Part shown: one piece after another, positions 1 to 34,821 of the stretch
How the letters are laid out: every line of letters starts with the position of its first letter
How positions within the stretch are numbered: position 1 is the stretch's first letter
Source: Alphaproteobacteria bacterium
GTDB taxonomy: Bacteria; Pseudomonadota; Alphaproteobacteria; JAJTHO01; CANGXP01
Length of the DNA: 36,573 nucleotides
Direction of reading: 5' to 3'
Assembly: GCA_947457935.1 (NCBI GenBank)
Contig: CANGXP010000016.1
Location: 1-36,573 of the forward strand
Notes under the pieces: generated by a model
Told to the model about the DNA's origin: nothing
What the model saw: only the letters and a program-made list of their open reading frames with translations
Database searches by the model: none
Position numbers and translations under genes: made by a program

Positions 1-412
1 CAATTATAAAACAACGCGCTACGCTTGACTATACCGCTCGCACCTCAAGATTTGCAAAAAAATTTGCGAGCGGTAAAGCCCGCGCGGCGCTTGAGCGAAA
101 CATCGCAACTTCTTCAGTTACGATGAGTATAGAACTGCGTAAGTCCTGCTAGATTTGAGTTAGTCATTTTATTTTTCCCACCACTAAAAATTTAACCATA
201 CTTATTTAATCTTAAAAAAAATAGTTAATAATATCACACTATGGAACCTCAAACCCCATCGTTTCTTTTTCTGTCAACTCTTTTTCCTTGCATTTCTCCC
301 CAAACTCCTATACTATTTCCAAACATTGACAGCTTAGCATTTTTTGTAAGCCTTTGACCCGTTCGGGTATTGTCATTTTTTTCTCTCACACATTAAAGAA
401 CTCCCCTCATTT
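1..412. other. Intergenic region at the left edge with structured repeat
   Basis: I see no convincing gene in this stretch. Positions 29-132 hold copy A of a structured repeat, listed separately. The rest is AT-rich. A short hairpin (ACCCG-TT-CGGGT) sits near 358-369, just before the first gene. A TTGACA hexamer lies at 326-331 but has no good -10 partner 16-18 bases downstream, so I do not call a promoter. Confidence 0.6.
29..132 (+). repeat. Structured repeat element, copy A
   Basis: This copy is about 104 bp and ends in short inverted repeats (CTATAC at 29-34, GTATAG at 127-132). Hairpin 1 is a 10-bp stem, ACCGCTCGCA (33-42) with TGCGAGCGGT (65-74). A conserved GC-rich middle (about 75-100) follows. 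Hairpin 2 is CATCGCAAC (101-109) with GTTACGATG (117-125), with one mismatch and loop TTCTTCA. A second copy in the opposite orientation lies at 30755-30866. I do not recognise the family. The fold is read from the sequence; mobility or an RNA function is inference. Confidence 0.75.
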
Positions 413-7013: not shown

Positions 7014-7158
7014 ATTCTTCCACCTATACTTTTTTAGCGATTACGCAAAAATCCGCACGACGCCTATAATTTCTTTTTTACAATATGCAGGAAAACTTAA
7101 AAAATAATGAAGGAGGGTGATGCTTTTGGTAATTGCTTCTTTAGAAGCATCGTATTTA

Positions 7159-7424
7159 GAACCAGTCATCTAAAAAATTTTAGAAATAGTCGGAGATAAA
7201 ATGAAGAAATTGCTAAGAGAAAGAGGCAGCCAATATCGAGATATTGGCAACGAATTCGATGCCGCAAGAATTCATTTTAGCCCGACCCTAGAGGGGCAGG
7301 GTTATTTTTGCGCCTTACATCGTCAAACCCCTTACCAATATCTCGATATTGGTTGCGGTCTTTTCCTCGTAATCCGACAAAAATTCCGCCTGCTATTTCT
7401 TAAAATTTTTTAGATGACTGGTTC
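7159..7424. mobile_element. 266-bp MITE-like element with TTA target duplication
   Basis: The ends are inverted repeats of 31-32 bp (7159-7189 and 7393-7424) that differ by a single base insertion. They begin GAACCAGTCATC. The trinucleotide TTA flanks both sides (7156-7158 and 7425-7427), as a target duplication would. A second, perfect 18-bp inverted pair lies inside (7230-7247 and 7335-7352, CCAATATC half sites), so much of the element can fold into one long hairpin. A 70-codon frame at 7201-7413 reads through the palindromes and ends in the right repeat; it is probably a relic or chance. Three-base TNA duplications occur in some IS5-type elements; that link is inference. Confidence 0.8.
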
Positions 7425-7484
7425 TTAGTAAAATAAAAAAATGAGAGTGGTATGCAGCAGATAGATGCAAGTATCTTTAGAGTA

Positions 7485-7547
7485 GATTCCCGCTTTCGCG
7501 GGAACAACAGGCAGAGCTAAATTGTCATTCCCGCGAAAGCGGGAATC
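7485..7547. repeat. Extragenic palindrome, 20-bp perfect arms
   Basis: Left arm 7485-7504 and right arm 7528-7547 are perfect reverse complements, built on GATTCCCGCTTTCGCGGGAA. The loop is 23 bases. Each arm is itself partly palindromic. The flanks AGAGTA and TTGTCA match the repeat clusters at 5648-5855 and, in part, 34417-34489. Confidence 0.9.
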
Positions 7548-7619
7548 CATTCTTTAGTAAAGTTATGCTACTATCGTTCTTTAAAGAAACACTCTCAAAA
7601 AAGTAGTCAAAGAGTCACT

Positions 7620-12245: not shown

Positions 12246-12264
12246 GTAGATACCTGAAGAATTT

Positions 12265-12347
12265 CTGGATACCAGCTTTCGCTGGTAATTCGCACCGCAG
12301 GCAGTCGTTGCGAGAGTGGCGAATCACCAGCGAAAGCTGGTGTCCAG
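12265..12347. repeat. 83-bp hairpin between moxR and DUF58 genes
   Basis: The outer arms begin CTGGATACCAGC and end GCTGGTGTCCAG and pair over about 29 positions with two mismatches (left arm 12265-12293, right arm about 12319-12347). The loop is about 25 bases. It resembles other extragenic palindromes in the window in size, but the sequence differs. Lying inside the moxR-DUF58 unit, it could alter the ratio of the two products by slowing decay or attenuating transcription; that is inference. Confidence 0.85.
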
Positions 12348-12389
12348 CTATTTGACTTACAAAACGTCTCTTTAGAAATTTAAATGACA

Positions 12390-30754: not shown

Positions 30755-30866
30755 GTAATTATACCTGTTGCACATGAAGAATGTGCAACGTTTCGCTCAA
30801 GCGCCGCGCGGGCTTTACCGCTCGCAAGATATTTTTGCAAATCTTCAGGTGCGAGCGGTATATTAC
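30755..30866 (-). repeat. Structured repeat element, copy B
   Basis: This is the inverted second copy of the element at 29-132. Outer arms GTAATTATACC (30755-30765) and GGTATATTAC (30857-30866) pair with one bulge. Hairpin 1 is ACCGCTCGCA (30817-30826) with TGCGAGCGGT (30850-30859). Hairpin 2 is GTTGCACA (30767-30774) with TGTGCAAC (30782-30789), loop TGAAGAA (TTCTTCA on the other strand). Hairpin 1 and the middle are nearly identical to copy A, while hairpin 2 differs by compensating changes. The right end overlaps the DUF4175 stop codon. Confidence 0.8.
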
Positions 30867-33139
30867 TCTCCCCCCAACAGCCCCCGCAAATACTGCCGTT
30901 CTTGCCCTTCAGAGTGATGCAATTTATCTTGTATGGTTTGCATAAGCTGGCGGAGTTGGTTTGCCTCCACCGCATCAGGTACAGGGTAGCGACTGTTTAG
31001 CGGGTTTTGCGGTGCTGCGCCTTGCAACGAGGGAAAAGGAAGCGACGGATTTTGTTGTTGCAGTTGTTTTGAGGCTTGTTGCAGCGTTTTTTCCAGCGCA
31101 TTCACCGCTTCATGTTGGGCATCCAAACTTTGTTGTTGCTGTTGTCCCCCTAAGGCTTTTAGGCTTTTTTGCATCGCCTCAAGCGCTTGGGTTAAGCCTT
31201 CAAGCGGCAGTTCCGTGCCCTTTCCTTGCGCCATAATTTTTTTTAACAAGGGAATAAGCTGTTGCTGCACTTGGGCGAGTTTTTCCAACTCGGTTGGCGC
31301 GTTCGTTTCCCCTGTTTTTTTGAGTAAGTTCCGTTGTGCTTGGGTAAGGTTTTGCATATCCTCTAATAACGCGAGGGATTTTTGCAATTGCGGGGATATT
31401 TCTTGCGGGTTCTGCAAATTCTCCATCATTTGTTGGAGGGAATCGAGGCGTTTGAGCGCGTCCTCTGGCTTGCCGCTATTGGCAAGCGTTTCGATGGATT
31501 CAAGATATTTTTGTAAGCCACTCATGTTCACATCGGGCGGTGGTGCGCCTTTGGGTGTTTGTTGTGCCGCCATGCTTTGGATGTATTTTTCCAAGGCGGC
31601 GTTAAATTCTTTTAACGCTTGCTGTAGGGCTTCTGTATCACGGTTTGGGTTGGCAAGTAGCTCTCTTAGTTTGTCGGCTGCTTGCCGCATATTCTCTGCT
31701 TCGCGTCCTGTTGTCCCCTGTTCCAAACGCACGGCTGTTTGCCATAATAATATAGCGGCACTGTCAATCGGGGGTATGGCAATGCTGAGGCGTTGCAGCG
31801 CACTGATGAACGACAGATAGGCGGTGAAATCCTCCCTAAAAATCGGTGCAGGATTTTCTAAATAGGGGCTAAGAATTGCAACGACTTTTGGCGGTGTGAG
31901 TGTATTGTCTAACAACTTTTTGCGCGTCTCGATAATGTGCTTTGCAACAGGGTGCGTGAAAATGCGTTCAGGGAGGGGGATGGTGACAGGGGCGGTGGCG
32001 GTGGTTTGCCCCGCGCTATCGGTGGCGATGAGCGAGAGGCTCACCTTTTGTCCTGCAAACGGCAACTCGCTAAAGTCTGCCGTTGCTTGCGTTGTAAGGG
32101 TTTTAAGCGGATTCTCCCAAGCATAGAGTGTCTGCTGATGAGGTTTGTTTTTTTGCGGGGAAAGCAGAACCTCAATACGCACAATCCCATAATCATCACT
32201 GGTGGCGAATGGCAGCGTGAGACTGTTTTGCTGGTTAAGAATGATTTTATCCGTCAGCGCAATTTTCGGGGCTAAATCCGCAATAACATTAATATTCCAC
32301 GGCGCGGCTGTCAGCAGTCCGCTTTTTAAGCGATACGACCCGCTTGCCGTCAGCGGTGTATTGAGTTGCTGGTCATCGTCGCTATGGTCAACAAATCGTA
32401 GCGTATCACCGCCATGTTTCACGCTTAAGGGTAAAAACGTATGCGCTGCTGTGAGTTTTAAAACAGAGCCGTGTGGCACGTTTATTTCCTTCTCATCAGT
32501 GGGCAGCATGATAGCTGGAAGCCCTGTGTATGCGGGCGGTTCAATCCACCCCGTCACCGTTGGCAACGTGGTAAATCCGTTGATCGCCACAGCGGGGCGT
32601 AAGGTCTCTTGAATGTTTTCCCGCGCTGCAGGAGACAGCAATACTAGGGACAAGATCACTGTCATGGCAATCAGCGTAGAATTTTGAACACTGATTAATA
32701 TTTTAGTTTTGAAAGCAAAGCGTATGCTTTTCAACTTTCTCGAAAGCCACGATTTTGATTGGGTTTGATGCAACTGCCAAAGGGCTTGTTCCAGCGGTGT
32801 TTTTGCCTGTGAGGGGGTGTCTTTTTGCACGGCAAACGGCTGGTGCTTCAAAAGGCTAGCGCGTTCAATTTGTTGTTCGGCTTCTTTTAAAGTGGGCAGC
32901 GGCAGCGTGCGTACTGTTTTTATAACCGCATTTGCTATAAAGCCCAACACAGCCACCACACACCCGATATGCAGCCACAGTGGCAGCGCAAGAAATAATC
33001 CCGTTGTGGCGAGCAGCAAAAAAACGAGCGTGATAAGCGCGGTATCTTTAAGTTTTAAAACAAAACGATGGAGGTAAAGCCAAGCCTGTGCTTGCCAATA
33101 GAGAGCGCGGGAAACGGTGGTGGGCTTTACGTCAACCAC
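30863..33139 (-). CDS. DUF4175 (TIGR02302-type) membrane protein
   Basis: This 758-aa protein belongs to an alphaproteobacterial family of unknown function. Hydrophobic segments lie near residues 35-75 (two) and 148-170. A periplasmic region with β-rich domains (200-400) follows, then a long Gln/Leu/Ala-rich helical part (about 450-740) with coiled-coil character, such as LEAMQKSLKALGGQQQQQSL. It starts with GTG and overlaps lysA by 13 bases, the usual order in alphaproteobacteria. It is shorter than many members (about 850 aa). Its stop codon lies at the boundary of structured repeat copy B, so the C-terminus may have been trimmed by that insertion. Confidence 0.88.
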   Translation of the reverse strand: MVDVKPTTVSRALYWQAQAWLYLHRFVLKLKDTALITLVFLLLATTGLFLALPLWLHIGCVVAVLGFIANAVIKTVRTLPLPTLKEAEQQIERASLLKHQPFAVQKDTPSQAKTPLEQALWQLHQTQSKSWLSRKLKSIRFAFKTKILISVQNSTLIAMTVILSLVLLSPAARENIQETLRPAVAINGFTTLPTVTGWIEPPAYTGLPAIMLPTDEKEINVPHGSVLKLTAAHTFLPLSVKHGGDTLRFVDHSDDDQQLNTPLTASGSYRLKSGLLTAAPWNINVIADLAPKIALTDKIILNQQNSLTLPFATSDDYGIVRIEVLLSPQKNKPHQQTLYAWENPLKTLTTQATADFSELPFAGQKVSLSLIATDSAGQTTATAPVTIPLPERIFTHPVAKHIIETRKKLLDNTLTPPKVVAILSPYLENPAPIFREDFTAYLSFISALQRLSIAIPPIDSAAILLWQTAVRLEQGTTGREAENMRQAADKLRELLANPNRDTEALQQALKEFNAALEKYIQSMAAQQTPKGAPPPDVNMSGLQKYLESIETLANSGKPEDALKRLDSLQQMMENLQNPQEISPQLQKSLALLEDMQNLTQAQRNLLKKTGETNAPTELEKLAQVQQQLIPLLKKIMAQGKGTELPLEGLTQALEAMQKSLKALGGQQQQQSLDAQHEAVNALEKTLQQASKQLQQQNPSLPFPSLQGAAPQNPLNSRYPVPDAVEANQLRQLMQTIQDKLHHSEGQERQYLRGLLGGE

Positions 33140-34383: not shown

Positions 34384-34416
34384 GATATTTATTATAGTTA
34401 GCGATGTATAAAAGGC

Positions 34417-34489
34417 GTGTCATTCCTGCGCAGGCGGGAATCCAGAATACTACATTGCCTCTGGATTCCCGCCTGCGCGGGAATGACAC
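34417..34489. repeat. Extragenic palindrome between lysA and the GIY-YIG gene
   Basis: Left arm 34417-34446 (starting GTGTCATTCCTGCGC) and right arm 34460-34489 (ending GGGAATGACAC) are 30 bp long and differ at one position. The loop is 13 bases. The TGTCATTCC and GGGAATCCA signature is shared with the repeats at 5648-5855 and 7485-7547. Confidence 0.92.
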
Positions 34490-34503
34490 CTCGACTATAC
34501 TTG

Positions 34504-34794
34504 CTATAACGCATTGCTTAAGTCTTTCCATGTTGGATTATTTTTTTCAATAAGCTTTAGTTTCCAGTGCCTATTCCATTTTTTAATTTGTTTTTCGCGC
34601 ATAATAGCAAATTCTATTTCTTCGCATACTTCAAACCATACCAATGTTTTTACGCCGTATTTTTTTGTAAATCCATCAGCCATATCACGTTGATGTTCGT
34701 ATATTCTACGCGGCATATTATTTGTTACACCTACATATAAAGTGCCGTTCTGCTGGCTAGCAAGAATATACACAAAATACTGTTTTGTAAGCAT
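34504..34794 (-). CDS. GIY-YIG nuclease-superfamily small protein
   Basis: A 96-aa stand-alone GIY-YIG domain of the UPF0213/YhbQ-like group. The motif is QYFVYILASQQNGTLYVGVT (YVYIL ... LYVGVT stands for GIY-YIG), followed by catalytic Arg in MPRRIYEH, KTLVWFEVCEEIEFAIMREK with the conserved Glu, and QIKKWNRHWKLKLIEKNNP. The ATG at 34794 fits the family start; an upstream TTG (34821) would add 9 residues. These proteins may act on DNA repair or mobile elements; function is poorly defined. It interrupts the usual lysA neighbourhood and sits beside a palindromic repeat. Confidence 0.9.
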   Translation of the reverse strand: MLTKQYFVYILASQQNGTLYVGVTNNMPRRIYEHQRDMADGFTKKYGVKTLVWFEVCEEIEFAIMREKQIKKWNRHWKLKLIEKNNPTWKDLSNAL

Positions 34795-34821
34795 AACGGA
34801 ATCTATGTAAAATGTTCCCAA

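Follow-up and report, generated by a model that had tools for sequence, protein, structure and literature searches.

Two copies of a short repeat built from two hairpins lie, on opposite strands, in a 36,573-nt stretch of DNA (the window), which is contig 16 of a draft genome of 1.83 Mb from an alphaproteobacterium. What such a repeat is, and how it came to be there, is the question raised by this locus: an earlier note, made from the letters of the window alone, offered a mobile element moved in trans, a structured RNA or a protein-binding palindrome. Comparison with the rest of the genome and with other Alphaproteobacteria points to non-autonomous, CIR-like mobile DNA of the MITE kind, of which one copy has multiplied as the passenger of an IS701-family element while the stand-alone copies are older insertions. 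We consider this reading probable, at about 0.78.

Layout and fold of the two copies

Each copy is composed of hairpin 1, a GC-rich linker of 24 nt and hairpin 2 (Table 1). The copies that the earlier note had placed at 29–132 and, inverted, at 30755–30866 are real, with limits slightly refined, and the TATAC and GTATA ends described there are the termini of the element. Hairpin 1 and the middle are, as stated in the note, nearly identical (92% over 87 bp). Hairpin 2 is different in its stem sequence, with the TCTTC loop and the length common to both copies. Four of its pairs are changed on both sides between copies 1 and 2 (alignment columns 85/108, 87/106, 91/102 and 92/101), and one stem position is left unpaired in each copy. 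The compensatory changes given in the earlier note are seen in the alignment.

An alignment of six copies, one of them from another family of the same order, contains six doubly changed pairs, above the number in shuffled or slid controls. In this alignment 96.8% of the cells pair, compared with 88.2% in shuffles, and the covariation score of 0.243 (0.086 in shuffles) was reached by none of 500 shuffles. Folding energies of the copies lie 3.3–4.6 s.d. below those of shuffled sequences (z of −3.3 to −4.6). The claim that the fold rather than the sequence is kept therefore holds for the arms, where covariation exceeds that of the shuffles, and fails for the linker, where sequence conservation is highest in the element.

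Table 1 Positions of the two-hairpin copies and of the adjoining features in the window
Feature	Position	Strand	Sequence or remark
Two-hairpin element, copy 1	30–131	+	TATACC...GTATA; inside IS end
Copy 1, hairpin 1	32–75	+	TACCGCTCGCA (32–42) paired with TGCGAGCGGTA (65–75)
Copy 1, linker core	77–100	+	AGCCCGCGCGGCGCTTGAGCGAAA; common to Alphaproteobacteria elements
Copy 1, hairpin 2	101–125	+	CATCGCAACT, loop TCTTC, AGTTACGATG
Stand-alone element, copy 2	30760–30862	−	Also recovered by the relatives-only model R2
Copy 2, hairpin 1	30816–30860	−	From fold and pair comparison
Copy 2, linker core	30791–30814	−	Identical to copy 1 linker core
Copy 2, hairpin 2	30767–30789	−	GTTGCACAT, loop TCTTC, ATGTGCAAC
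TAA stop of the upstream DUF4175 gene (30863–33139, − strand)	30863–30865	−	Directly abuts copy 2
Left end assigned to an IS701/ISPlag1-like element	1–148	−	22 contig ends agree up to and including AACTGCGTAAGTCCTG and no further
Terminal inverted repeat of the IS	136–148	−	CAGGACTTACGCA, read 148–136

Elsewhere in the window are a tRNA-Leu (CAA) gene (1212–1297, + strand) and palindromic repeats around TGTCATTCCCGCG..CGCGGGAATCCA (7479–7553, 12260–12352 and 34406–34500), the last of which adjoins an ORF with a GIY-YIG domain (34504–34821). Nested inverted repeats at 7153–7430, with 30-nt arms that are 93% complementary, 218 bp apart and placed around a 60-nt pair, are possibly another small mobile element.

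Copy 1 as the passenger of an insertion sequence

A BLAST search of the genome with 112 bp returned 20 full and two cut matches. All are 100% identical, and each lies at the end of a contig and is directed inwards. Identity extends 16–17 bases past the element, up to AACTGCGTAAGTCCTG, and ends there. Read outward-in, AACTGCGTAAGTCCTG is CAGGACTTACGCA, which occurs in 51 exact copies in the genome (0 for a reversed-pattern control) and also forms the start of a second set of contig ends. Encoded at this second end is the peptide NHIACVNLAWVILKRAAYALKTTVYQLKEKLLYDYVYSALNNPLRLVM, a transposase C-terminus of 48 amino acids (read by eye from locus L037), which Pfam did not recognize and which is 53% identical to that of the IS701-like ISPlag1 of Planktothrix (tblastn on plasmids). 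The Planktothrix element has the same termini as the carrier, on both sides.

Owing to the contig-end identity, the CAGGACTTACGCA termini and the ISPlag1-like C-terminus, window positions 1–148 are, on sequence grounds, assigned to an IS701-family element as its left end, the body of the element having collapsed out of the assembly. The carrier is read at its two ends, with the C-terminal 48 residues as the part of its transposase present in the assembly; the gene itself would run leftwards off the contig. Copy 1 thus exists as reported, yet it stands for at least 22 identical contig-end copies within an IS end. Because these copies are unchanged, their number reflects IS transposition and is uninformative about the repeat itself, and the perfect copy number in this genome should not be taken as a sign of selection on the repeat. 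As one of the two window copies is an IS passenger, the two are not independent evidence of one process.

The two-hairpin insert is absent from the relatives of the IS that were compared: those in the same order (G003, L282), in another family (G143, L281) and in Planktothrix, Moraxella and Acinetobacter. The carrier accordingly resembles the ISPlag1-like members of the IS701 family in its terminal repeat and its related transposase C-terminus, and differs from the examined known members in having a passenger. Also observed, in G000 (C2:70838–70980, C3:16635–16776 and C14:16663–16994; L031–L034 and L041–L042), were MITE-like derivatives of the carrier IS, 142–332 bp long, with an IS701-like terminal repeat on both sides and without the two-hairpin element.

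Stand-alone copies in the genome

About six diverged copies stand alone, on contigs C16 (copy 2), C31, C21, C4, C14 and C68, and one more partial copy was found in another family of the same order; the genus and the family of the organism are represented by a single genome in the collection. The stand-alone copies have different flanks and end at TATACC/GGTATA, with neither an IS terminus nor IS sequence on the other side. Two types of hairpin 2 occur among the copies, the IS copy being of the same type as that on C21. The stand-alone copies lie between the main ORFs and are overlapped only by short or antisense ORFs.

Copy 2, located between the DUF4175 gene and a gene for an Sbt_1 transporter, is the only one of the six that abuts a stop codon. 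Beyond its other end, at 30761–30759, is a second TAA, and the flanks read TAA-TA-TACC (left) and GGTA-TAA (right). This pair of TAA triplets is suggestive and compatible with a decayed TAA duplication, albeit short of proof, since an extra TA intervenes on the left. At the six copies of this genome, whose flanks read NTA/TACC...GGTA/TAN, a TNA duplication was not seen.

A wider family with a conserved linker

Elements that have different arms and the same fold carry the linker AGCCCGCGCGGCGCYTGAGCGAAA in other Alphaproteobacteria, among them Xanthobacter, Sphingobium and Methylobacterium. A literature search for the linker sequence returned nothing relevant. The 24-nt core is carried by 66 stretches that match the pattern AGCCCGCGCGGCGCYYKAGCGAAA, from Xanthobacter, Aquabacter, Methylobacterium, Methylorubrum, Sphingobium estronivorans, Sphingomonas, Stakelama, a Magnetospirillum bin and others. 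Most of these are full elements (TACC-arm-loop-arm-GGTA, linker, arm-loop-arm-GGTA), and in some copies the arms are missing. As the strict pattern is found in only 7 of 385 sampled genomes of the class, the distribution is patchy rather than universal.

In the arms of the relatives 22 of 32 pairs are changed on both sides with pairing kept, and the covariation score is 0.484, where shuffles gave 0.185 and slid controls did not exceed 0.110. These elements, too, fold better than shuffles. A model constructed from the relatives, R2, for which no sequence of the window's genome was used (a joint MAFFT alignment with the window copies misplaced the arms), recovers the window's copies with E values of 2.7e-9 to 4.7e-7, and has matches in at least 5 of 190 class genomes among the best 20 candidates scored per genome. 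The search for further copies in the genome and in relatives that the earlier note had proposed has thus yielded many more, nearly all with pairing kept.

Reduced forms were also observed. In Xanthobacter (L145:1238–1363; also L095 and L120) the linker is found without hairpins in tandem 34-bp units, which makes it a repeat of its own as well. Lone single-hairpin versions of about 36–41 bp, with the same TACCAACCG termini, are present in G114 (L222, L223, L228, L230 and L241). The left arm is reduced to a TACCAAGG-like stub in L096, L116, L129 and L131, of which L096, L129 and L131 keep identical TNA flanks.

Target-site duplication and placement on stop codons

Flanking the elements of the relatives are short direct repeats of the form TNA. 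Among 21 full elements for which the parser set a TNA on either side, 19 have identical flanks, with the same middle base. A parser that does not require TNA still recovered it at 24 of the 26 flanks on each side, left and right, and the flanks were identical in 19 of the 22 elements with TNA on both sides, against 6.3 expected. Within S. estronivorans alone (G385) the repeats are identical in 13 of 15 elements (shuffle mean of 4.5, maximum of 11 in 10,000 shuffles), and a fourth identical flank base is present in none. The preferred context of insertion is CTNAG. The TNA repeats are evidently a 3-bp target-site duplication, which makes the family mobile DNA. Within IS5, TNA duplications are characteristic of the IS1031 branch. 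The suggestion of a mobile element moved in trans is supported through these duplications in relatives. A transposase with matching ends was not found, and among 145 ends in G114 no examined unpaired end led to an obvious transposon.

When the empty sites of 37 elements were reconstructed, the duplicated TNA coincided in 24 with the stop codon of an ORF 80 or more codons long. The same holds for 64 of 588 control TNA sites no more than 200 bp away (11%). The gene stop is on the + strand of the element in 17 of the 37, and the remaining 7 of the 24 stop-codon cases are on the opposite strand. With a crude gene caller the enrichment is weaker and in the same direction (9 of 21, against 10.6% of sites), and on an annotated plasmid the coding sequence of a Pannonibacter MFS transporter ends on the element's left TGA. 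Since any TNA reads as a TAA or TGA stop on one of its strands, the duplication leaves the interrupted gene with an intact stop. This placement may come from target choice or from the survival of insertions that do no harm, and the stop is intact in either case.

Relation to known repeats

The earlier note knew of no named family with this layout, a statement that does not stand beside the CIR repeats. These are described (Chen & Shapiro 2003, as given in PMC2229807) as intergenic repeats of about 110 bp in Alphaproteobacteria, with two stem-loop arms, a linker, TA termini and GANTC, the CcrM site, in the loop of one arm; in PMC2229807 their target-site duplication is tabulated as ‘?’, and their mobility was unexplained. 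As far as that description of the layout goes, the window element is alike in its two long inverted-repeat arms, its linker, its length of about 110 bp and its 5′-TA-3′ at both termini (TATACC...GGTATA or GTATA), and the intergenic location is matched by the stand-alone copies. GANTC in one arm loop is also present in same-linker relatives and is missing from the window copies and the scanned stand-alone copies. A RAMA domain was found in a Caulobacter control and in none of the four genomes of the order. Since the window copies are without GANTC and no RAMA domain was found in the order, the element is called CIR-like and not filed as CIR, a likeness drawn from the published layout description. 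The CIR-type layout has been known since 2003; what the sequence comparison adds is the TNA duplication and the stop-codon placement.

With MITEs the element shares short length, non-coding character, terminal inverted repeats, multiple copies and, in the relatives, a target-site duplication (TNA), and it differs in that two arms joined by a conserved linker stand where MITEs have a single long palindrome. REPINs, the REP doublets mobilized by RAYT, are similar in their two hairpins and spacer, and single-hairpin forms are likewise seen in G114; here, however, the linker is the conserved part, TNA is duplicated and the termini lie inside stems. Rickettsia palindromic elements (RPE) are palindromic mobile repeats of similar size in Alphaproteobacteria, which are inserted in-frame within genes, whereas the element here is intergenic, with a preference for stop codons and a different layout. 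Membership in the RPE was rejected, as the stand-alone copies are not in-frame insertions in protein genes.

Discussion

Compensatory change in both arms is strong, folding is better than in shuffles and the elements sit directly behind stop codons, all of which would be expected of a structured regulatory RNA or of an mRNA 3′-end element (a stabilizer or terminator) whose fold is selected and whose spread is secondary; conservation of the fold could also come from an RNA function. We nevertheless consider this unlikely: nothing credible was recovered from Rfam at gathering or permissive thresholds, insertions face either way with respect to the gene upstream (17 versus 7 of the stop-codon cases), some copies have no arms, and the exact TNA copy on the far side has no RNA explanation. 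A dedicated structured RNA, one of the options of the earlier note, is not supported. A protein-binding palindrome placed by selection, serving as a nucleoid-protein site or, as in CIR, a methyltransferase site with GANTC in the loop, is more improbable still. It would accord with the strongly conserved linker and with GANTC in 16 of 25 parsed elements of relatives, usually as TGACTC in the hairpin-1 loop; against it, the motif is lacking in the window copies and the scanned stand-alone copies, the four genomes of the order yielded no RAMA domain of the CcrM type, and the duplication shows that transposition brought the element in.

The 22 identical copies within the IS could also suggest that the element is an intrinsic, regulatory piece of the IS701-like left end, with the stand-alone copies as decayed IS ends. 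This is the least probable of the readings considered and was rejected, given stand-alone copies that stop cleanly at TATACC/GGTATA and relatives of the IS that have no insert; the hairpin 2 type also differs in stand-alone copies, and the same core is present in genomes without this IS context.

Non-autonomous mobile DNA remains the favoured reading, and the earlier interpretation as a whole is partly supported, with the observation on which it was built confirmed. The element would be a unit of about 102–109 bp that is bounded by TACC...GGTA and made of two hairpin arms and the conserved, GC-rich linker, patchily distributed in Alphaproteobacteria and inserting, as shown in relatives, at TNA (preferably CTNAG), which is duplicated and is very often the stop codon of a gene. 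A transposase acting in trans would recognize the TACC/GGTA ends and perhaps the linker too. The arms may drift with pairing kept if transposition depends on the hairpins, in the form of cruciform or single-stranded DNA; alternatively, the hairpins may serve the stability of mRNA 3′ ends, or template-switch repair may keep the arms palindromic. In the genome of the window, one copy probably entered an IS701-family element between the terminal repeat and the transposase gene, and that IS copy would then have multiplied to at least 22 identical passenger copies. The stand-alone copies, including copy 2, would be older, separate insertions.

A broader proposal, tentative and one on which we lean slightly towards doubt, is that structured mini-transposons across the class, CIR included, target stop codons through CTNAG, duplicate TNA and rebuild the stop harmlessly. 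Once in place, their hairpins may have a role at mRNA 3′ ends, and the linker would be a candidate recognition site of the transposase. The copy carried by the IS shows that the repeat has a second way to spread. The TNA duplication and the stop-codon placement provide a concrete, testable form for how CIR-type repeats move, and the same two features would explain the high numbers of such repeats in compact genomes.
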